From contig VFJY01000132.1 in the NCBI GenBank assembly GCA_009885825.1, forward strand, positions 1-60,628: 60,628 nucleotides of DNA, written 5' to 3'. The notes below the pieces were generated by a model. It saw nothing but the letters and a program-made list of their open reading frames with translations. It did no database searches and was not told the origin of the DNA. Numbering within the stretch: the first letter of the stretch is position 1; the number at the start of each line of letters is the position of its first letter. This document shows positions 1,426 to 19,280 of the stretch, piece by piece. Source of the DNA: Rhodobiaceae bacterium (GTDB taxonomy: Bacteria; Pseudomonadota; Alphaproteobacteria; Rhizobiales; Aestuariivirgaceae). The translations under genes were made by a program, and so were the position numbers.

Positions 1426-2667
1426 TCAGGCAAATTTCTGGTCATATTCGATGACGGCGTTGAGTAGCACCTGCGATCCCGCGCCACATTCCTCCAGCGT
1501 GGTTGACTCCGCCTCGTTGTGTGAAATGCCGCCAAGGCAGGGAACAAAAATCATGGTGGTCGGCGCAACCCTGGCGATGTAAGCCGCGTCATGGCCAGCC
1601 CCTGAAGCCATCTCGCGCATGTCAAAGCCCGCTTGCGCCGCCCCCTTCCGCACACATTCAATCAGCTCAGGATTGAATTTCACCGCCGGTGATTTCCAGA
1701 TGCATTTTTCTTCATAAGTGAGTTTCTCTTTGTCCGCGGCAGGTCCAAGGGCGGCGCGGAATGAAGCCTCCATTTTATCCAGCACCGCCTCATCGGGATG
1801 GCGCAGATCAACCGTGAAGAAAACTTCCCCCGGCACCACATTGCGGCTGTTGGGCCGGTTTTCAATCAGTCCCACCGAAGCAACCCCCGGCAGATGCGCC
1901 AGCCCCACCTGATGAATGGCTTCGATCATGCGCGACGCTCCAAGCAGCGCGTTTTTCCGGAGCAGCATCGGTGTTGCCCCCGTGTGGGATTCCTGCCCCG
2001 TGACCATCACTTCATACCAGCGCATGCCCTGCACGCCCGTCACCACGCCGATCATCTTGCCCTCGGCTTCCAGGATAGGTCCCTGCTCGATATGCAATTC
2101 AAACATCGCCTGGAATTGGTGGGTGCCCACCGGCTCTGAGCCCAGATAGCCAATGCGCTTCAACTCATCACCCAGCTTGATGCCGTCGCGGTCTTCGCGC
2201 GAATACGCGTAATCGGGCGTGAACACGCCCGCATAAACGCCGGAGCACAGCATCGCCGGCGCAAACCGCGAGCCCTCCTCGTTGGTCCAGTTCACAATCA
2301 TGATGGGCGCGTTGGTTTCATAACCCATGTCAACCATGGTTCGCAGCGCCTCAAGCGCCCCCAGCACCCCCAGCACGCCGTCAAATTTCCCGCCCGTGGG
2401 CTGCGTATCGAGATGCGATCCCAAGGCGATGGGCAACATGTCCTTGCGGCCAGGCCGCGTGGCGAACATGTTGCCAACGCTGTCCACCTGCACGCTGCAG
2501 CCCAGCGCCTCGCACTGCGCCTTGAACCAGTCGCGCACCCGCCGGTCTTCATCCGAAACGGTGAGCCGCTTGATGCCGCCCCTCGCGGTGCCGCCAAACT
2601 TGGCGGTCTCCATGAGCGAGTCCCACAGCCTCTGCGGATTGATCACCAGATTGGATTTGGATGTCAT
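1426..2667 (-). CDS. Zn-dependent M20 amidohydrolase (N-carbamoyl-beta-alanine/allantoate amidohydrolase family)
   Basis: A 413-residue hydrolase of the N-carbamoyl amino acid amidohydrolase family, full length for the group. Metal ligands are visible as GSHLDTQPTGGKFDG (His85, Asp96), NWTNEEGSRF (Glu130/131) and ELHIEQGPILE; the C-terminal SGAGHDA holds the last zinc His. Members release ammonia and CO2 from beta-ureidopropionate, allantoate or N-carbamoyl amino acids. Its RBS (AGGGAA) overlaps the vapC stop codon and only 9 bases separate the genes, so it is probably transcribed from the vapBC promoter. A role as beta-ureidopropionase in reductive pyrimidine breakdown would fit the RutR-linked importer 9 kb away, but that is inference. 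Confidence 0.93.
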   Translation of the reverse strand: MTSKSNLVINPQRLWDSLMETAKFGGTARGGIKRLTVSDEDRRVRDWFKAQCEALGCSVQVDSVGNMFATRPGRKDMLPIALGSHLDTQPTGGKFDGVLGVLGALEALRTMVDMGYETNAPIMIVNWTNEEGSRFAPAMLCSGVYAGVFTPDYAYSREDRDGIKLGDELKRIGYLGSEPVGTHQFQAMFELHIEQGPILEAEGKMIGVVTGVQGMRWYEVMVTGQESHTGATPMLLRKNALLGASRMIEAIHQVGLAHLPGVASVGLIENRPNSRNVVPGEVFFTVDLRHPDEAVLDKMEASFRAALGPAADKEKLTYEEKCIWKSPAVKFNPELIECVRKGAAQAGFDMREMASGAGHDAAYIARVAPTTMIFVPCLGGISHNEAESTTLEECGAGSQVLLNAVIEYDQKFA

Positions 2668-2676
2668 GGAAATTCC

Positions 2677-3072
2677 CTAAGCCACACGAATGTCAGTATG
2701 GACAAAATCATCGCCCTTGAACAGCAGCGGAACGCGGTGATGCCTGGCGCAGGCATAGGCGAAGCAGTCGCCCATGTTCAGCGCGGCCCTGTGCCGGCCC
2801 TTGCCATATTGGCGAAAGGCATCGACTGCCATCTCACCGATTATGTCATCTATTGAAATCATCCGGGCCTTGGTGATGGTCAGGAAATCGCGAACCGCCG
2901 CAGCCGCAGCCACAATGTCTCCATCCAGAATGCGCGCAAATCCCAAGCTTGCCTCGTACACCGCCAAAGGCGAAGCAAACACCCGGTCGGAGGCATTCAG
3001 CTTGTCCCTGATTGCAAATCGCTCCGGCTCCTTTGCCAGCACCGCGATGATCGCCGATGCGTCCACAAACAT
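2677..3072 (-). CDS. vapC: VapC-family PIN-domain RNase toxin
   Basis: A 131-residue single PIN domain. The acidic catalytic set is in place: Asp4 in MFVDAS, Glu40 in YEASLGF, Asp102 in [11 protein letters not shown] and Asp121 in FKGDDF. VapC toxins are Mg-dependent endoribonucleases that cut tRNA or rRNA when freed from the cognate antitoxin. The start overlaps the vapB stop by one base (TGATG), the usual translational coupling. The next gene downstream on this strand, an amidohydrolase, follows after 9 bases. Confidence 0.95.
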
Positions 3073-10965: not shown

Positions 10966-11958
10966 TCACATCCCCTTCGCGGCGTCCGTCACAACGCTGG
11001 TCCAGGCGCCTTCGGGCTTTGCGGTGATCACCGGATCAGAACCGCCTTTCATCAGTGTTTCCACTGTCCGTTCCGCCGCCGCCACATCGAGCGAGCCATC
11101 GGAGCCTTCGGTCAGCATGTTGATCTCCTGGATCATCGTCGTCTGGTGGCCTTCCGTCTGCGAGCCTGAAGCATCGTTTTCGAGAACGATCTTCACGGCG
11201 TCCGCTGGATTGGCGCGCGCGTCATCCCAGCCTTTCATGGAAGCCTTCACAAACTTCGCCATGGTGGCAACGAAAGCCGGGTCTTTCAGCTTGTCTTCGA
11301 GGACATAAAGGCCGTCCTCCAACGTCGCCACGCCCTGGTCCTCATATTTGAACACCACCAGCTCGTCAGCCTTCATGCCGGCTTCAATGATCTGGTAATA
11401 TTCATTGTAGGTCATGGTTGAAATGCAATCGGCCTGCTTCTGCAGGATGGGGTCCACGTTGAAACCCTGCTTCAGCACGTTCACGCCGTCAGCCCCGCCG
11501 GTGGTTGGAATGCCGAGCTGGCTCATCCACGACAGGAACGGATATTCATTGCCAAAGAACCACACGCCCAGCGTCTTGCCCTTGAAATCCTCAGGCTTGG
11601 TGATGCCGGTTTCCTTGCGGCAGGTCAGCATCATGCCCGAGCGCTTGAAGGGCTGGGCGATGTTCACAACCTTGGAGCCCTTTTCGCGCGTCGCCAGCGC
11701 CGAAGGCATCCAGTCGATCACCACGTCGGCGCCGCCACCAGCCAGAACCTGCTGCGGATTGATGTCGGGTCCGCCCGGCATGATGGTGACCTCAAGGCCC
11801 GCATCCTTGTAATAGCCCTTGGCCTGGGCCACGAAGTAACCGGCGAACTGCGCCTGGGTCACCCACTTCAACTGAAGTTTCACCGCTTCGGCGAATGCGC
11901 TGCCCGATGTTGCCAGAAGCGCGCCTGCCGCTGCGGCGGCCAATAGATATTTCTTCAT
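10966..11958 (-). CDS. ABC transporter periplasmic substrate-binding protein (NMT1/ThiY-like)
   Basis: A 330-residue protein with a signal peptide (MKKYLLAAAAAGALLATSGSAFA) and an NMT1/THI5-like fold. KLQLKWVTQAQFAGYFVAQAKGYY and GADVVIDWMP are typical of binding proteins for pyrimidine-like or other small aromatic ligands. GGGAG precedes ATG 11958; upstream in-frame starts overlap the permease gene. It is last in the operon ATPase-permease-permease-binding protein. The RutR-type box at the operon head points to a pyrimidine or pyrimidine-derived ligand, which is inference. Confidence 0.9.
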   Translation of the reverse strand: MKKYLLAAAAAGALLATSGSAFAEAVKLQLKWVTQAQFAGYFVAQAKGYYKDAGLEVTIMPGGPDINPQQVLAGGGADVVIDWMPSALATREKGSKVVNIAQPFKRSGMMLTCRKETGITKPEDFKGKTLGVWFFGNEYPFLSWMSQLGIPTTGGADGVNVLKQGFNVDPILQKQADCISTMTYNEYYQIIEAGMKADELVVFKYEDQGVATLEDGLYVLEDKLKDPAFVATMAKFVKASMKGWDDARANPADAVKIVLENDASGSQTEGHQTTMIQEINMLTEGSDGSLDVAAAERTVETLMKGGSDPVITAKPEGAWTSVVTDAAKGM

Positions 11959-11990: not shown

Positions 11991-12752
11991 TTACGTCCTG
12001 TAAGACGGATGCCAAAAAGTCACCCACCGCTCGAGAGCGACAAGCAACCCGTAAAAAGCCGAACCCACCAGTGCTGCCACGGTGATTTCAGCCCAAACCA
12101 TATCCAGCCCCATGCGGCCCACTTCCGTTGAGATGCGGAACCCCATTCCCACAATGGGGGTGCCGAAAAACTCAGCAACAATCGCGCCAATCATCGCCAA
12201 TGTCGAGTTGATCTTGAGCGCGTTGAAAATGAAGGGCATGGCGGCGGGCAGGCGCAGCTTCACCAGCGTCTGCAGCCAGTTGGCGCCGTAACTCCGCATC
12301 AGGTCGCGCTCCAGATGCCCTGATGCCTGCAGGCCGGTGACGACATTCACCAGCATCGGAAAGAACGTCATCACCACAACCATCGCAGCCTTCGATTGCC
12401 AGTCGAAGCCAAACCACATGACCAGGATTGGAGCCACACCCACAATGGGAAGCGCCGCCGCCAGATTGCCCAGCGGCAGCAGCCCGCGCTTGAGAAAATC
12501 AAAGCGGTCGCACAGCAGCGCCACCAGAAATCCGGCAAGCGAGCCGATAATCCAGCCCGGAATGACAGCGCGAATGAACGTCTGCACAAAATCTTCGTAA
12601 AGCGTTGGCAGCGAGGTGATGAGCTTCGCCCATATGTCAGTAGGCGCCGGAAAGATCACGAAGGGCACATCGAAAAACCGCACGAAGGCTTGCCAGAACA
12701 CCAGAACGGCCACGCCAAAAATCACCGGCGCGATGAAATTCTGCGTCTTCAT
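11991..12752 (-). CDS. ABC transporter permease (BPD_transp_1), second copy
   Basis: A 253-residue inner-membrane permease with about six membrane segments. The EAA-type ATPase-contact loop appears as RSYGANWLQTLVKLRLPAAMP. Its start overlaps the stop of the upstream permease gene by four bases (ATGA), so the two subunits are translationally coupled and probably form the heterodimeric channel of the importer. Confidence 0.93.
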   Translation of the reverse strand: MKTQNFIAPVIFGVAVLVFWQAFVRFFDVPFVIFPAPTDIWAKLITSLPTLYEDFVQTFIRAVIPGWIIGSLAGFLVALLCDRFDFLKRGLLPLGNLAAALPIVGVAPILVMWFGFDWQSKAAMVVVMTFFPMLVNVVTGLQASGHLERDLMRSYGANWLQTLVKLRLPAAMPFIFNALKINSTLAMIGAIVAEFFGTPIVGMGFRISTEVGRMGLDMVWAEITVAALVGSAFYGLLVALERWVTFWHPSYRT

Positions 12753-13594
12753 GCGCGAACCCCCATGCGGGCATTCACCACGCGCTCAATGCCGCCCACA
12801 CCATAGACCAGGCTTGCCGCGACTGCCGACGCCGCAACGAGTGCTGCCCAGATCTGGATGGTCTGCCCGTAGTAGGAGCCAGCCAGCATGCGCGACCCAA
12901 TACCCGCTTGCGCCCCCGTCGGCAGCTCGCCCACAATCGCGCCCGTCAAGGCGATGGCGATCGCGATCTTGAGCGAGGTGAACAGAAACGGCATCGCCGC
13001 CGGAAACCGCAGCTTCCAGAGAACCTGTGGCCCACTCGCATTGTAGGTCCGCATGAGATCAAGCTGCATGGGATCCGGCGATGTGAGGCCCTTCACCATG
13101 CCGATGGTCACCGGGAAGAAGCACAGATACATCGAGATGATGGATTTGGGAAAAATCCCCGTAAGGCCCACCGACCCCAGCACCACGATAACCATGGGCG
13201 CGATCGCCAGGATGGGAATGGTTTGCGAAGCGATGATCCACGGCATCAGGCTTTTATTGAGCAGTTTGGAATGCACAATGGCCACCGCCAGCCCAATGCC
13301 CAGCAGCGTCCCCAGCGCAAATCCCAAAAGCGTCGAGGACAGCGTCACCCACACATGAAACACCAGCGACTTCACTTTCCATGGCGCCACCGTGAACACC
13401 GTTTTCCACACTTCAACCACAACCTGATGCGGAGCCGGGATCACCGGCCGCTCAAGGCTCCAGGAGATATCCAGCGTGTTCACCAAGCCGCCACCCGCCG
13501 CTTCAATTTTCGCCTCCGCCACCACCGTGTTCATGAAGACAGCCGCAATATACCAGGCAACAAGTATGGCCAGGCACACCACGGTCACAGGCAT
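12749..13594 (-). CDS. ABC transporter permease (BPD_transp_1), first copy
   Basis: A 281-residue membrane permease of the SsuC/ThiX type. It starts MPVTVVCLAILVAWYIAAV at ATG 13594, which AGGAG supports at a spacing of about 10; an ATG six codons earlier (13612) has a poorer upstream. The EAA-type loop is RTYNASGPQVLWKLRFPAAMP. A periplasmic insertion of about 60 residues follows the first membrane segment, which the second permease lacks. It lies 39 bases after the ATPase gene. Confidence 0.92.
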   Translation of the reverse strand: MPVTVVCLAILVAWYIAAVFMNTVVAEAKIEAAGGGLVNTLDISWSLERPVIPAPHQVVVEVWKTVFTVAPWKVKSLVFHVWVTLSSTLLGFALGTLLGIGLAVAIVHSKLLNKSLMPWIIASQTIPILAIAPMVIVVLGSVGLTGIFPKSIISMYLCFFPVTIGMVKGLTSPDPMQLDLMRTYNASGPQVLWKLRFPAAMPFLFTSLKIAIAIALTGAIVGELPTGAQAGIGSRMLAGSYYGQTIQIWAALVAASAVAASLVYGVGGIERVVNARMGVRA

Positions 13595-13633
13595 GGTCGA
13601 GTTTCTCCTCATCTAAACTCTGTCATCTCGTCT

Positions 13634-14413
13634 TCAATCCTCATAGCTGTGCCCCGCCTTCAACCCTTCCCTCACCCGCTGCGCGATCTTCAGGAACGCG
13701 CCCGTCTCGCGGATATCCAGTGTGCGGTCCCTTGGCAAATTCGTCTCGATCACATCAATGATCCGCCCGGGGCGCGGGCTCATCACCACAATCCGCGTCG
13801 ACAGAAACACCGCCTCCGGAATTGAGTGCGTCACAAACACCACAGTTTTTTTGGTGGCCGCCCACAGCTCCAGCAATTGCTGGTTCAGCTTGTCGCGCAC
13901 GATTTCATCGAGCGCCCCGAACGGCTCATCCATCAGCAAGAGCTTCGGCTCGACAGCCAGCGCCCGCGCGATGGAAACCCGCTGCTGCATGCCGCCCGAC
14001 AATTGCCAGGGAAACTTCTTCTCAAACCCGCCCAGATTCACCAGATCCAGATTGCGCTTCACCCGCGCGGCCGCGTCAGCGGTCCCCATGATTTCCAGCG
14101 GCAGCCCGACATTCTGCTCAACCGTCCGCCAGGGATAAAGCGCTGGCGCCTGAAACACATAGCCGTAGGCGCGGGCTTTGCGCGCCTGTTCCGGCGCCAT
14201 GCCATTGACCGAAACCGTCCCCGCGCTCGCCCGCTCCAAATCGGCGATCACCCGCAAAAGCGTGGTTTTCCCGCATCCCGAAGGCCCGATCAGCGAAACA
14301 AAATCCCCGTCCTTCACCGTCAAATTGATGTCCTGCAGGGCAAACACCGGCCCATCCGCCGTGGTGAACGTGAGGCTCAAGTCGCTGGCGCTGATCACGG
14401 CTTGAGCCGTCAT
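13634..14413 (-). CDS. ABC transporter ATP-binding protein (nitrate/sulfonate/taurine type)
   Basis: A 259-residue ATPase. Walker A is [11 protein letters not shown], the Q-loop [12 protein letters not shown], the signature [15 protein letters not shown], Walker [14 protein letters not shown] and the switch His [13 protein letters not shown] 14413 is preceded by GGGAGGGG; an ATG eight codons earlier lacks this. It is the first gene of the importer operon, with the RutR-type box 47-62 bases before the start codon. Confidence 0.95.
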
Positions 14414-14735
14414 GACCCCTCCCGGGCATTTTTTCATTGTCCCTAAAAACTATCCGCTCTTGACCATTTGATCAAGAATTATAAGGCGCCTTCCAATGCC
14501 CCAGTTGATAGCCGGCAAGGCGAAGGTTTTGCGATCATCGATGAAGGTGGAAATATTGCTTGCGGATAGGCGCTGATCAAGCTTTGAACGAACGTGAAGG
14601 AGCGTGGCTCCGCTCAGAGCGGATCGTCATTGGCCTGCTAGACGAAAGATTGAATTTTAAAATGCCGCACCCTAGACTGAAGCATGAGTTCTTGCTTTCT
14701 CTGTTCACAACATGTTTGTTGAGGTCCTGAAATGA
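14414..14735. other. Divergent intergenic region, about 320 bp
   Basis: It holds the RutR-type box near the ABC operon end and, at 14609-14623, TCCGCTC-A-GAGCGGA, a perfect 7-bp inverted repeat about a single base that could be an operator or hairpin. I see no further gene or convincing promoter pair in the remainder. Confidence 0.5.
14460..14475. promoter_or_regulatory. RutR-type box upstream of the ABC importer operon
   Basis: TTGACCATTTGATCAA matches the published E. coli RutR consensus TTGACCANNTGGTCAA at all but one fixed position. The same 16 bases recur at 18615-18630, before the RutR-like gene in this window. The site sits where an operator for the ABC operon would be expected. Confidence 0.78.
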
Positions 14736-17390
14736 GTGCTTTCAATGCTCGTTGAGCGCGAAATCCAATTGATCGCTCTGCGGGAAGCGGCAAAACGCGC
14801 ATCATCAGGGCAGGGCGGCATCATCATCCTTGAAGGCGAGGCTGGCATCGGCAAAACCTCTCTCTTAATGGAATTTTCCAGTCGGGCCGCGAAGGATTGC
14901 AAATTTTTGTGGGGCGGCTGTGAAGCGCTTTTTACGCCACGCCCACTTGGTCCCCTGCAGGACATGGCGGAAGCCCTGGACAGCAATGTGGCGACGCTCC
15001 TTGGGCAAACGGCAGCCCAGGGCAGGATTTTTCCGGCCCTATTGTCCGCCCTGCAAAGCGCCGATGAAACGCGTGTCATGATTTTCGAAGACGTGCATTG
15101 GGCGGACAACGCAACCCTTGATCTGATCAAATACCTGGGCCGCAGAGTTTCAATGTTGCATGTCCTGCTGGTGTTAAGCCTGCGCCGGGACGAAGTTGAC
15201 GTTGATCATCCCTTGAACCAGGTCTTGGGCGACCTGCCCTCTGCGGCCACAAATCGCCAGTCTCTCCAACCGCTTTCGCCCGACGCGGTCGCCACTCTCG
15301 CTGAATCTGCTGGCCACGGCGGCGAAAGGCTTCACGAGATCACGGGTGGAAACCCATTTTTTGTGACGGAGCTATTGGCTGGCAACAGCGACGACTTGTG
15401 GCGCATTCCCGCGTCAATACGCGATGCGGTCTGGTCACGCATTTCACGTCTCACCCCGGCGGAGCGTGAGTTGCTAGAAATGATAAGCATCGTGCCCGGA
15501 AGCATTGAATTTTCCCTGCTCCAGGCCTTGTTCGGCGCCAGTGCAAATGCGTCAATAGAAAAGTGCCTGAGCAGCGGCATGCTGCTCCGCGATGAACAGG
15601 GAAATCTCAGGTTCCGCCACGAGCTTGCCAGACAGGCAACGCTGGAACGCCTGAACGCCGCCCGGCAAAAGACTTTCCATCAAAAAGTTGAAGCAGCGAT
15701 GACCGCAAACCCGGCAGGCTTTCCACTTTCACGCAGGGTTCACCACGCGGCAGGCGCAGATAACGGTCCTCGTGTTTTGTCTCTCGCTCCGCAAGCCGCA
15801 ACTGAGGCCGCCCGTCTCGGCGCCCACCAGCAGGCAGCACAGCACCTGGCTACGGCATTGAAATATGTCGACCAGGCCCCAACCGGGCTTGTCGCCCAGC
15901 TTTACGAAGATTGGGCCTATGAAGCAGGCATCGCGCTTCAAATCGATGACTCAATCATCGCCGCCAGGCAAAATGCCATCAAGCTTTGGCAACAGCTGGG
16001 CCGGTTTGATAAAGTGGGCCTGAATTTGAGATGGCTGTCGAGACTGCACTGGTATCGCGGCGAATCGCAGCTTGCCAATGATTACGTCAACCAGGCTGTT
16101 GAGGAATTGGAAAAACAGGCGCCCGGCGCAGAGCTTGCCATGGCCTATAGCGCGCGGTCGCAAATGCACATGCTGAATGATCGGACTGATGAAGCCATCG
16201 CATGGGGAAAGCGCGCGATCAACTTGGCTGAGCAGCTCGGAGAGACGGAAACGCGCGTCCACGCGCTCAACAATGTTGGCAGCGCGTTATTGTTTTCGGG
16301 CCGGTCCGGCGGCGCCCAGTTCATGGAGGAAAGCCTGCGCCTCGCCCTGCAACATGGCTTTCATGAACAGGCAGCGCGAGCCTACACCAACTATGCCGAA
16401 TATGGCGTCGTTTTCAAGGACTTTGCCCTCGCCGAAAAAATCCTCGCCGAGGGCATTGCATTTGATACGCGCCACGACCTGGACTCGTGGACCCATTATC
16501 TTGTTGGCCGCAAGGCGCAGCTTTGCATGGAACAGGGCAAGCTGCGCGAAGCTGAGACCATCGCTGCGGGCGTCATGAAACTTGATCGCCTGACACTTGT
16601 CATGAAACTTCCGGCCCTCATGGTCTTGGGCAGGGCCCGGATGCGTCTTGGTGAAAGCGATGGCCTGGGTCTTTTGCAACAAGCCTTGCGCGATGCCTTG
16701 GCGACTGGCGAGCCTCAAAACATTACGCCCACCCGTTTTGCATTGGTTGAAGCCGCGTGGTTATCGGGCGAGCGGGCGATGTCACACATGCATCTGAACG
16801 CCCTTGCCGCCATGGATTTGGCGGGGTTTGACCCCTGGGAACTCGGCGAAATGGCTGTCTGGTGGAAGCGCTGCAAAATGGGCTCTGAATTTGCAACCGA
16901 ACCCAAAACATTGGCCGCCCCGCGCGCCGCCGAACTGCAAGGCGATCTCGACAACGCTGCGCATCAATGGCTGCAACTCGGGCTTCCCTATGAGGCTGCT
17001 CTGGTGTTGATGCAAACAGGCAAGAATGAATCTGCGTCTCGCCTGAGACAAGCAGTGATTATTCTCGATGAAATGGAAGCGAAATTGGCGGCAAGTTTCG
17101 CCCGGGCGGTGGCGAAAGGCTGTGGCACAATTGAACATATGCCAAGAGCGAGGCGCGGCCCATATTCGGCCTCACGCAATCACCCACTTGGCCTTACGCC
17201 ACGCGAGGTGCAGGTCCTTGAGTTGGTTGTTCAGGGAATGGCAAATCAGGACATCGCTGCAAAACTGGTGCGATCCCAACGTACCGTTGAACATCACGTT
17301 TCATCGTTGCTCGGCAAGTTGAATGCCAATAGCCGCATAGATATCATGCTGCGCTTGCGCAGCGAGCCCTGGCTTTTGAAAAGCCAATAG
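14736..17390 (+). CDS. Large LuxR-family (LAL-type) ATPase transcriptional regulator
   Basis: An 884-residue STAND-type regulator. The N-terminal AAA_16 domain has Walker A GEAGIGKTSLL at about 30-40 and Walker B MIFEDVHWAD near 115. The middle is alpha-helical with TPR-like repeats (about 350-750). The C-terminal LuxR helix-turn-helix is LTPREVQVLELVVQGMANQD plus RTVEHHVSSLLGKL. Such proteins are signal-integrating activators; the signal is unknown. GTG 14736 lies 11 bases after GAGG, with an in-frame ATG at 14745 as alternative. It is divergent from the ABC operon, but I see no shared site tying them beyond proximity. Confidence 0.92.
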   Translation: MLSMLVEREIQLIALREAAKRASSGQGGIIILEGEAGIGKTSLLMEFSSRAAKDCKFLWGGCEALFTPRPLGPLQDMAEALDSNVATLLGQTAAQGRIFPALLSALQSADETRVMIFEDVHWADNATLDLIKYLGRRVSMLHVLLVLSLRRDEVDVDHPLNQVLGDLPSAATNRQSLQPLSPDAVATLAESAGHGGERLHEITGGNPFFVTELLAGNSDDLWRIPASIRDAVWSRISRLTPAERELLEMISIVPGSIEFSLLQALFGASANASIEKCLSSGMLLRDEQGNLRFRHELARQATLERLNAARQKTFHQKVEAAMTANPAGFPLSRRVHHAAGADNGPRVLSLAPQAATEAARLGAHQQAAQHLATALKYVDQAPTGLVAQLYEDWAYEAGIALQIDDSIIAARQNAIKLWQQLGRFDKVGLNLRWLSRLHWYRGESQLANDYVNQAVEELEKQAPGAELAMAYSARSQMHMLNDRTDEAIAWGKRAINLAEQLGETETRVHALNNVGSALLFSGRSGGAQFMEESLRLALQHGFHEQAARAYTNYAEYGVVFKDFALAEKILAEGIAFDTRHDLDSWTHYLVGRKAQLCMEQGKLREAETIAAGVMKLDRLTLVMKLPALMVLGRARMRLGESDGLGLLQQALRDALATGEPQNITPTRFALVEAAWLSGERAMSHMHLNALAAMDLAGFDPWELGEMAVWWKRCKMGSEFATEPKTLAAPRAAELQGDLDNAAHQWLQLGLPYEAALVLMQTGKNESASRLRQAVIILDEMEAKLAASFARAVAKGCGTIEHMPRARRGPYSASRNHPLGLTPREVQVLELVVQGMANQDIAAKLVRSQRTVEHHVSSLLGKLNANSRIDIMLRLRSEPWLLKSQ

Positions 17391-17681
17391 CTTCCAAATT
17401 TAAAAATTGGGTGCGGGCCTTCGGAAAATTAGGTGGCCGCCCCGATGCAACCCGCGCGCGTTTTCCATAGCACTATTCCCAGCGCAGACAGGTGCGCGAT
17501 GTTACAGATTGAACTGGGCAATGGTTCAATATCCTTGGCGGGCACTCGGCCAGTAATCCTATTCCTGCAAACTGGCGGGTGCCCAGAGGTGTTCGAGCTC
17601 TGGCGCCCAGACCATGCTGATTGATCGCCGCGGCGTCTATCAGGTGACAAAAATGGCAAAGGGCGGGGGTATGGAGAATCT

Positions 17682-18626
17682 ATGTCGCGCAAAAGCGCAA
17701 ATTTTCTGTTGCTTATCGCAGCCCTGCTATGGGGCATCGGAAACGTGGCTCAGCAAACAATACTGGAAGATATCGGGCCTTTCACCGCCGTTGGATTGAG
17801 ATGCCTTGTTGCGGCTTTGGTTGTGCTGCCATTCACGCTGCGGAAAGTTCCAACGCCAGCAAAATTGGATAATGCCGGAAAGAAGCTGGCGTTGAAAACA
17901 ATCACGCTCTTTGCAATTTCTGTCACTCTTTTGCAAATAGGATTTGGCTTGACCACGGTCACCAACGCAGGTTTCCTGGTGAATACGGTTGCTGTGATAA
18001 CACCCCTCGTCGCCTTTTTTGTTATGCGGCAGAAAATTTCAACCATGGTTTGGCCAGCCGCGTTTATCATTCTCCTTGGGGCAGGCTTGATGAGCTCAAC
18101 GTCAGCGGTGGCCTATGGGCTGGGAGACATCCTGTGTCTTGCCGCGGCCGTTTCCTATTCATTCTGGATGATTTATCTCGGCCAGTTTGTCATCCGCTAC
18201 GGCCATGCATTAAGATTGACGTTCACGCAATTTACTGTCGCTGGCTTGGCATGTCTTTCGATTGGCATGGGTTTTGAGCCGATAAGTGCCGCGGGTCTCC
18301 AAAATGCGCTGCCCGAATTGCTGCTCTTGGGCGTATTCTCAACCGGATTTGGCTATTTGCTTCAGGCTGTCGCCCAACAAGATACCTCCGCAAGCGAAGC
18401 GGCAATCATTACCAGTGCCGAAGCCGTTTTTGGTGCAATCGGCGGGTATCTGGTTCTGGGAGAAACACTCAACCTGCATGGGGCATTGGGCGCAGCCCTG
18501 ATTTTCGGTGGAATTCTGCTCGTCCAGTTACCGCAAAAACCGGCGCCCCGCTTGGCGCCAACCTCGCATATGTCACGATTTTCTTCCTATGCAAAAGTAA
18601 AATCCGGGCCGCGCTTGACCATTTGA
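17682..18626 (+). CDS. EamA/DMT-family transporter
   Basis: A 314-residue protein with about ten hydrophobic segments arranged as two EamA repeats. The first starts FLLLIAALLWGIGNVAQQT; the second contains ITSAEAVFGAIGGYLVLGE, a DMT hallmark. These are drug/metabolite exporters or permeases. GGAG precedes ATG 17682 by six bases. The final dozen codons overlap the RutR-type box at 18615-18630, so its 3' end doubles as the operator of the next gene. The 291 bp before it hold no recognisable gene. Confidence 0.9.
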   Translation: MSRKSANFLLLIAALLWGIGNVAQQTILEDIGPFTAVGLRCLVAALVVLPFTLRKVPTPAKLDNAGKKLALKTITLFAISVTLLQIGFGLTTVTNAGFLVNTVAVITPLVAFFVMRQKISTMVWPAAFIILLGAGLMSSTSAVAYGLGDILCLAAAVSYSFWMIYLGQFVIRYGHALRLTFTQFTVAGLACLSIGMGFEPISAAGLQNALPELLLLGVFSTGFGYLLQAVAQQDTSASEAAIITSAEAVFGAIGGYLVLGETLNLHGALGAALIFGGILLVQLPQKPAPRLAPTSHMSRFSSYAKVKSGPRLTI

Positions 18627-18630
18627 TCAA
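18615..18630. promoter_or_regulatory. RutR-type box upstream of the RutR-like gene
   Basis: TTGACCATTTGATCAA, identical to the site at 14460-14475, lies 20 bases before the RutR-like start codon. This fits autoregulation of the repressor and co-regulation with the importer operon. Confidence 0.78.
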
Positions 18631-18650
18631 AAATCATAAAGTGGCAGGTG

Positions 18651-19280
18651 ATGCCACACGCAAAAGCCAAACCCGCGATCAATACCCGCATCCAGGCCCG
18701 CAACAAGGAATTGATCCTTGAGGCGGCGCTGGAGGTCTTCTCGGTTTCCGGTTTTCGCGGCGCCACCGTCGACCAGATCGCCGCCAGGGCGGACATGTCC
18801 AAGCCCAACCTGCTGTATTATTTCCGCCGCAAGGAGGACATCTATGTGGCCCTCCTTGAGCACACCCTGAGCGATTGGCTGGAGCCCTTGCGCGCCCTCG
18901 ATCCCGCGGGCGACCCGCTGGCCGAGCTCTCCCGCTACATCACCGCCAAGATGCAGATGTCGGAAGCCAATCCCATGGCCTCAAGGTTGTTCGCCAATGA
19001 AATCCTGCATGGCGCCCCCATGATCGAGAAGTTCCTCAAGGGCCCGTTGAAACAGCTCGTCGCCGAGAAGGCGGAGGTGATCCGGTTCTGGATGGCAAAC
19101 GGCAAGCTCGCCCACGCCGATCCCTATCACCTGATTTTCGCGATCTGGGCTGTCACCCAGCACTACGCCGATTTCTCCGTGCAGGTTGAAGCCGTGCTTG
19201 GCCGCCGCGAAAATGGCAGGTCGGCGCAAAAGGCCGTGCTGGATATCCTGTTGCGCGGCTTGCGGCCTAGGCAACCTTGA
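18651..19280 (+). CDS. rutR: RutR-like TetR-family regulator of pyrimidine metabolism
   Basis: A 209-residue TetR protein close in length to E. coli RutR and alignable along its whole length. The HTH is TVDQIAARADMSKPNLLYYFRRKEDIY. The C-terminal YcdC-like domain keeps NPMASRLFANEILHGAP and DPYHLIFAIWAVTQHYADFSVQVEAV. RutR senses uracil/thymine and represses pyrimidine-use genes in enterobacteria. ATG 18651 or the GTG one codon earlier may start translation. It is convergent with PPK2, and the 3' ends overlap by 14 bases. No rutA-G operon is in the window. Confidence 0.88.
   Translation: MPHAKAKPAINTRIQARNKELILEAALEVFSVSGFRGATVDQIAARADMSKPNLLYYFRRKEDIYVALLEHTLSDWLEPLRALDPAGDPLAELSRYITAKMQMSEANPMASRLFANEILHGAPMIEKFLKGPLKQLVAEKAEVIRFWMANGKLAHADPYHLIFAIWAVTQHYADFSVQVEAVLGRRENGRSAQKAVLDILLRGLRPRQP

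Follow-up and report, generated by a model that had tools for sequence, protein, structure and literature searches.

The 60,628-nucleotide contig VFJY01000132.1 of a Rhodobiaceae bacterium (hereafter the window, i.e., the whole stretch analysed) carries a four-gene ATP-binding cassette (ABC) importer of the NMT1/THI5 type and, 4,210 bp away from it, a RutR-like regulator gene, with the same short box before both. The locus raises the question of what this importer carries, to which regulon it belongs, and how two copies of one control site came to stand on either side of unrelated genes. We consider it highly probable that the locus is part of a RutR/PydR-type regulon of the reductive pyrimidine pathway, with an importer for a pyrimidine base and a shared operator that has been duplicated and split.

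The box is the 16-mer TTGACCATTTGATCAA, which occurs in two exact copies as claimed in the original prediction (Table 1), and a search with TTGACCANNTGNTCAA at fewer than two mismatches finds no further place in the window. The importer-side box lies 46 bp from the ATPase start that is backed by alignment with relatives, and the regulator-side box 20 bp from the regulator ATG, in agreement with the spacings first described (47-62 bp before the importer gene and 20 bp before the regulator). Each box has one mismatch to TTGACCANNTGGTCAA, corresponding to 13 of 14 positions for the regulator-side box, which recovers the one-position deviation from the E. coli RutR consensus, the consensus being taken as stated in the original prediction and not set against the published letters. 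Both boxes form the core of a 50-nt direct repeat.

The box was followed in 36 loci from the window's genus, window included, and in a wider sample, taken from a species-representative collection, of the best 80 importer loci of at least 584 relatives. Of these 80, six were dropped because they repeated genus loci; the other 74 still include some near kin, e.g., L036. In 30 genus loci the regulator and ATPase genes are divergent, adjoining and on one contig; L169 and L170, with another gene order, and L144, L145, L173 and L175, with one gene missing, fall outside this count. All 30 gaps contain the box, one copy in 27 and two in 3, always in the same orientation. Read from the regulator side, the boxes start with TTGATC and end with GGTCAA, and since 33 of 33 have T at position 5, this departure from the E. 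coli consensus is conserved.

Upstream regions were scored over 14 positions, with permuted palindromes as a control. A score of at least 12/14 is reached in the 300 bp before 33 of 33 rutR-like genes of the genus (control mean 0.03) and 40 of 47 others (0.02), with a maximum of 1 among the 60 permuted palindromes, and before the first gene of 28 of 30 importer operons of the genus (control mean 0.02). A preT match is present in 36 genomes, and of the loci scored in 30 of these, 27 reach at least 12/14 and all 30 at least 11/14 (control means 0.08 and 0.3, maxima 2 and 5, respectively). The original prediction had named a lack of conservation before orthologous importers as the finding that would count against it, and the opposite is seen. 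In six loci of a different make-up (L038, L079, L080, L086, L090, and L094), a box of 13-14/14 is found about 165-295 bp before the matched stretch of the binding-protein gene, which has no orthologous permeases beside it; four of the six contain preT-preA.

Searching the whole genome with TTGACCANNTGNTCAA at up to one mismatch gives 18 places (22 rows, against 5 rows in the reversed control), of which 3 do not lie wholly within an open reading frame (ORF) of at least 80 amino acids (aa): the two window boxes and C63:42858, located 39 bp before preT, which is followed by preA. The weaker matches are probably mostly chance, because TTGACCANNTGGTCAA at up to two mismatches yields 37 places and its reversed control 25 (one of the 37, the site in L116, is unclassified). 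An extension of the regulon to two single two-mismatch sites is unconvincing, these being C27:11408 before a SelR-domain gene and C38:3256 (L207:1501-1516), which may be chance. The latter is found between the divergent genes for an 8-oxoguanine deaminase and a YdcS-like binding protein. The scan had been proposed to see whether the genes for dihydropyrimidine dehydrogenase and hydantoinase share the site; the dehydrogenase operon does, and hydA has only a weak one. The conservation of the box and the site shared with preT-preA support the placement of the importer in a putative pyrimidine-sensing regulon, as read from the DNA.

The regulator is composed of a TetR_N (Pfam ID PF00440, 49.7 bits) and a TetR_C_3 domain (Pfam ID PF08362, 165.2 bits). 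Its best PDB match is E. coli RutR, and the two proteins align without gaps across the ligand pocket, in line with the likeness to RutR noticed initially. In the excerpts of PMC10891134, the uracil contacts of E. coli RutR are given as W77, Y97, W167, Q171, and Q179, and K52 and K62 belong to the DNA-binding domain; all seven residues are present in the regulator. The uracil-contact residues do not vary among orthologues of at least 50% identity (32 of 32 from the genus and 36 of 36 others). Of 10 more distant orthologues, 9 retain them all and one has F at position 167.

The degradation pathway of this genome is the reductive route of preTA and hydA, with a probable carbamoylase, and not Rut. 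PreA, the dihydropyrimidine dehydrogenase, scores 722 bits against a cut-off of 335, with a PreT-like gene (Fer4_20 domain) directly upstream, and the dihydropyrimidinase gene hydA on contig C1 (TIGR02033, 571.8 against 393.25 bits) is the only one above the cut-off in the genome. RutA reaches at best 20.7 of 498.3 bits in the 98% complete assembly, so that a Rut operon elsewhere was rejected. The C1 hydA (L111:9236-10693) shares only 65% identity with its counterpart behind the importer of genome G006; the window, unlike G006, has no hydA copy in that place. Near hydA on C1, ABC genes accompany a further binding protein of the NMT1 family (L111:13714-15015).

The M20 amidase of the window had been suggested to supply a later step of the pathway. 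It is the only one of five matches in the genome above the cut-off of the hydantoinase/carbamoylase family, and its orthologues (81-87%) lie downstream of the importer and on the importer's strand in 10 genus loci; in a further locus, L161, the orthologue adjoins preT on the opposite strand. A PIN-domain ORF at 2677-3072, a possible toxin-antitoxin part, adjoins the amidase gene. The hydA and M20 families also include hydantoinase and carbamoylase enzymes, and the amidase exceeds, in addition, the cut-off of a subfamily model that bears the name allantoate amidohydrolase, so the importer might instead carry a downstream or related compound, for example a hydantoin, dihydrouracil or an N-carbamoyl-beta-amino acid, and hydA and M20 would act as a hydantoinase/carbamoylase pair. 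We regard this as unlikely, given that preTA, which acts on uracil and thymine, has the box and that the regulator has a uracil pocket.

The importer set is complete, consisting of an NMT1 binding protein, two BPD_transp_1 permeases and an ATPase. Among the 74 importer loci outside the genus, hydA is found in 63, the M20 amidase in 55 and a rutR-like gene in 44, and 67 of the 74 have at least one of hydA, M20, preA, preT and rutR-like. The genome yields no match at E 0.001 to the NCS1/NCS2 permease families (Pfam IDs PF00860 and PF02133). The importer is the likely uracil/thymine uptake system. Existing annotation is less specific: of 10 listed matches among plasmid-borne orthologues, the 6 annotated ones are all merely called "ABC transporter substrate-binding protein." Some annotation systems label this importer a pyrimidine ABC transporter. 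In literature searches on the importer as a pyrimidine transporter, the phrase "pyrimidine ABC transporter" came up in one paper, PMC11698098, the excerpts of which treat marine bacteria, without RutR; the excerpts of PMC7685610, PMC9491525, PMC5381064, and PMC9870897 give nothing on the importer.

Several observations weigh against a pyrimidine importer under a RutR-type regulator. The assignment of the substrate rests on gene linkage. Only 31 of 62 importer operons outside the genus reach 12/14 (control mean 0.00; first gene traced by script). The genome's hydA has a weak site (3 mismatches, 140 bp upstream) and does not lie beside the importer, and a box before the M20 amidase was rejected, the best score being 9/14, with 0 of 13 genus M20 genes reaching 11. 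The regulator stays below both NCBI RutR cut-offs (218.7 of 368 bits for TIGR03613 and 194.3 of 230 bits for NF011584), and we named it RutR/PydR-like for this reason. Of four orthologues scored, all are below TIGR03613 and two are below NF011584 as well; a Sinorhizobium meliloti protein annotated as rutR is below the former and above the latter (232.5 of 230).

Finally, the nearest characterised binding proteins take thiamin or its precursor and not uracil. The nearest solved folds of the binding protein are a thiamin-pyrimidine-binding and a thiamin-binding protein, although a structure search informs on the fold and not on the ligand. The importer could stand under the regulator and still carry a thiamin pyrimidine, i.e., hydroxymethylpyrimidine (HMP) or its formylamino precursor, like ThiY. 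Control by a thiamin pyrophosphate (TPP) riboswitch is common, and not universal, among ThiXYZ importers of thiamin precursors. Such control was rejected here: no Rfam family matches the window at gathering score and no TPP riboswitch was found in the five relatives' loci scanned, which, together with the linkage of the binding protein to pyrimidine genes in the 67 loci, makes a thiamin-pyrimidine importer quite improbable. A match to the Ruegeria cis8 small RNA (Rfam ID RF02646) was seen in a Kiloniella locus (L048:20011-20138). That the two boxes are a chance repeat with no regulatory role, as most of the weaker genome matches probably are, can practically be dismissed in view of the position and orientation kept throughout the genus and the near-zero counts of the permuted palindromes.

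In the 27 single-box genus loci the gap between the rutR-like and ATPase genes measures 52-103 bp, against 4,210 bp in the window, which has two boxes with a LuxR-type regulator and an EamA transporter between them. Inserted genes flanked by a box on either side are seen in four genomes, each with a different main insert (split positions: 14454-18658 in the window, L142:5480-7000, L143:6570-7500, and L144:10050-10210 with L145:340-460). G006 encloses an EamA gene, the protein of which is not alike to that of the window; G026 encloses a 181-aa protein with no Pfam match, the tail of which we take to be PEP-CTERM-like; and in G024, where two contigs make up the locus, the boxes flank an ORF with a CxxCH motif, presumably cytochrome c-like. 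The GWRRKR-type tail of G026 can also be read beside the regulator in G006 and G024, so the inserts of these three share a part; a script search of the window insert found no such tail, and the flanks at the box edges of the window are unlike those of the three.

The importer-side repeat copy of the window still aligns with the unsplit gap of G014, and the match takes in the context of the regulator start. In a tree of three proteins from 15 genomes, the window is sister to the other four, G014 among them, with 97% support, and the unsplit G014 falls within a poorly resolved group (37-65% support). The operator may have been split twice independently, or once, with G014 losing the split later. 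As a tentative idea, which we would not favour at present, the duplicated RutR operator might serve as an insertion site where unrelated genes settle between repressor and target while control stays unbroken.

The regulator shares with E. coli RutR the TetR_C_3 domain, a near-palindromic operator, the uracil-contact residues and K52/K62. It differs in that it falls under the curated cut-offs, that T is fixed at position 5 of the regulator-proximal half-site, and that the box marks a reductive pathway and an ABC importer instead of rutA-G. By description, not by sequence, it also resembles Pseudomonas putida PydR, a RutR-like repressor of dihydropyrimidine dehydrogenase (cited in the excerpts of PMC7332683). 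RegPrecise describes RutR regulons for pyrimidine catabolism in 68 proteobacterial genomes of 13 groups, with 273 sites, 743 genes and taxon-specific substitutions in the motif, and our case is alike in regulator group, pathway and kind of evidence, as far as the excerpts of PMC5343134 go. A cluster on pSymB of S. meliloti (CP090106.1) contains the same kinds of genes, with an orthologous binding protein (72% identity) and with the Zn-dependent hydrolase (amidase) and hydA genes between the annotated rutR and the ABC importer. In the window's genome, by contrast, a separate contig carries hydA, the amidase stands at a distance of 8 kb and the regulator gap spans 4.2 kb. Because a homologous cluster is annotated with rutR and hydA, and RutR regulons are published (PMC5343134, in excerpts), the arrangement is not new; it is likely a known pyrimidine-recycling arrangement pulled apart in this genome by inserted genes. 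The new local detail is the duplicated shared operator, with copies now 4.2 kb apart.

Table 1. Positions of the importer, the regulator, their predicted operators and related features in the window
Feature	Position	Strand	Basis or remark
M20 hydantoinase/carbamoylase-family amidase, probable beta-ureidopropionase	1426..2667	-	no own box
NMT1/THI5-family substrate-binding protein	10966..11958	-	ORF open from 12027; start 11958 inferred from alignment
Importer permease 2 (BPD_transp_1)	11991..12752	-	domain match
Importer permease 1 (BPD_transp_1)	12749..13612	-	domain match
Importer ATPase	13634..14413	-	longest ORF begins at 14437; start backed by alignment
Importer-side 50-nt repeat copy	14454..14503	+	ends in regulator-start-like context (ATGCC); aligns with unsplit gap of a relative
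Predicted RutR-type operator, importer side	14460..14475	.	exact match; box kept in gap of 30/30 genus loci
AAA_16-LuxR (GerE) regulator, between boxes	14736..17390	+	domain match
EamA transporter, between boxes	17682..18626	+	domain match; last bases under regulator-side box
Regulator-side 50-nt repeat copy	18609..18658	+	76% identical to importer-side copy
Predicted RutR-type operator, regulator side	18615..18630	.	identical 16-mer; overlaps EamA ORF stop codon
RutR/PydR-like TetR_C_3 regulator	18651..19280	+	ORF open from GTG 18648; domains, PDB match, alignment

In the mechanism we propose, a dimer of the RutR/PydR-type repressor would sit on both window boxes and on a third before preT-preA, blocking its own gene, the four-gene importer and the dihydropyrimidine dehydrogenase. 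Intracellular uracil or thymine would bind to the conserved pocket and release the repressor from the DNA, the importer would then take up more of the pyrimidine base, or of a compound derived closely from it, for breakdown by preTA, hydA and the M20 carbamoylase as a source of nitrogen. The ancestor probably had one operator common to the divergent regulator and importer genes, which would have been duplicated here, with two unrelated genes now between the copies. As the copies flank the inserted genes, each transcription unit keeps its own box.

The split operator may be regarded as a natural record of a shared control site duplicating, with both genes keeping a box. The importer gains a candidate substrate class, namely uracil/thymine or close derivatives, which, in a genome with no NCS1/NCS2 matches, suggests how nucleobases could enter the cell.

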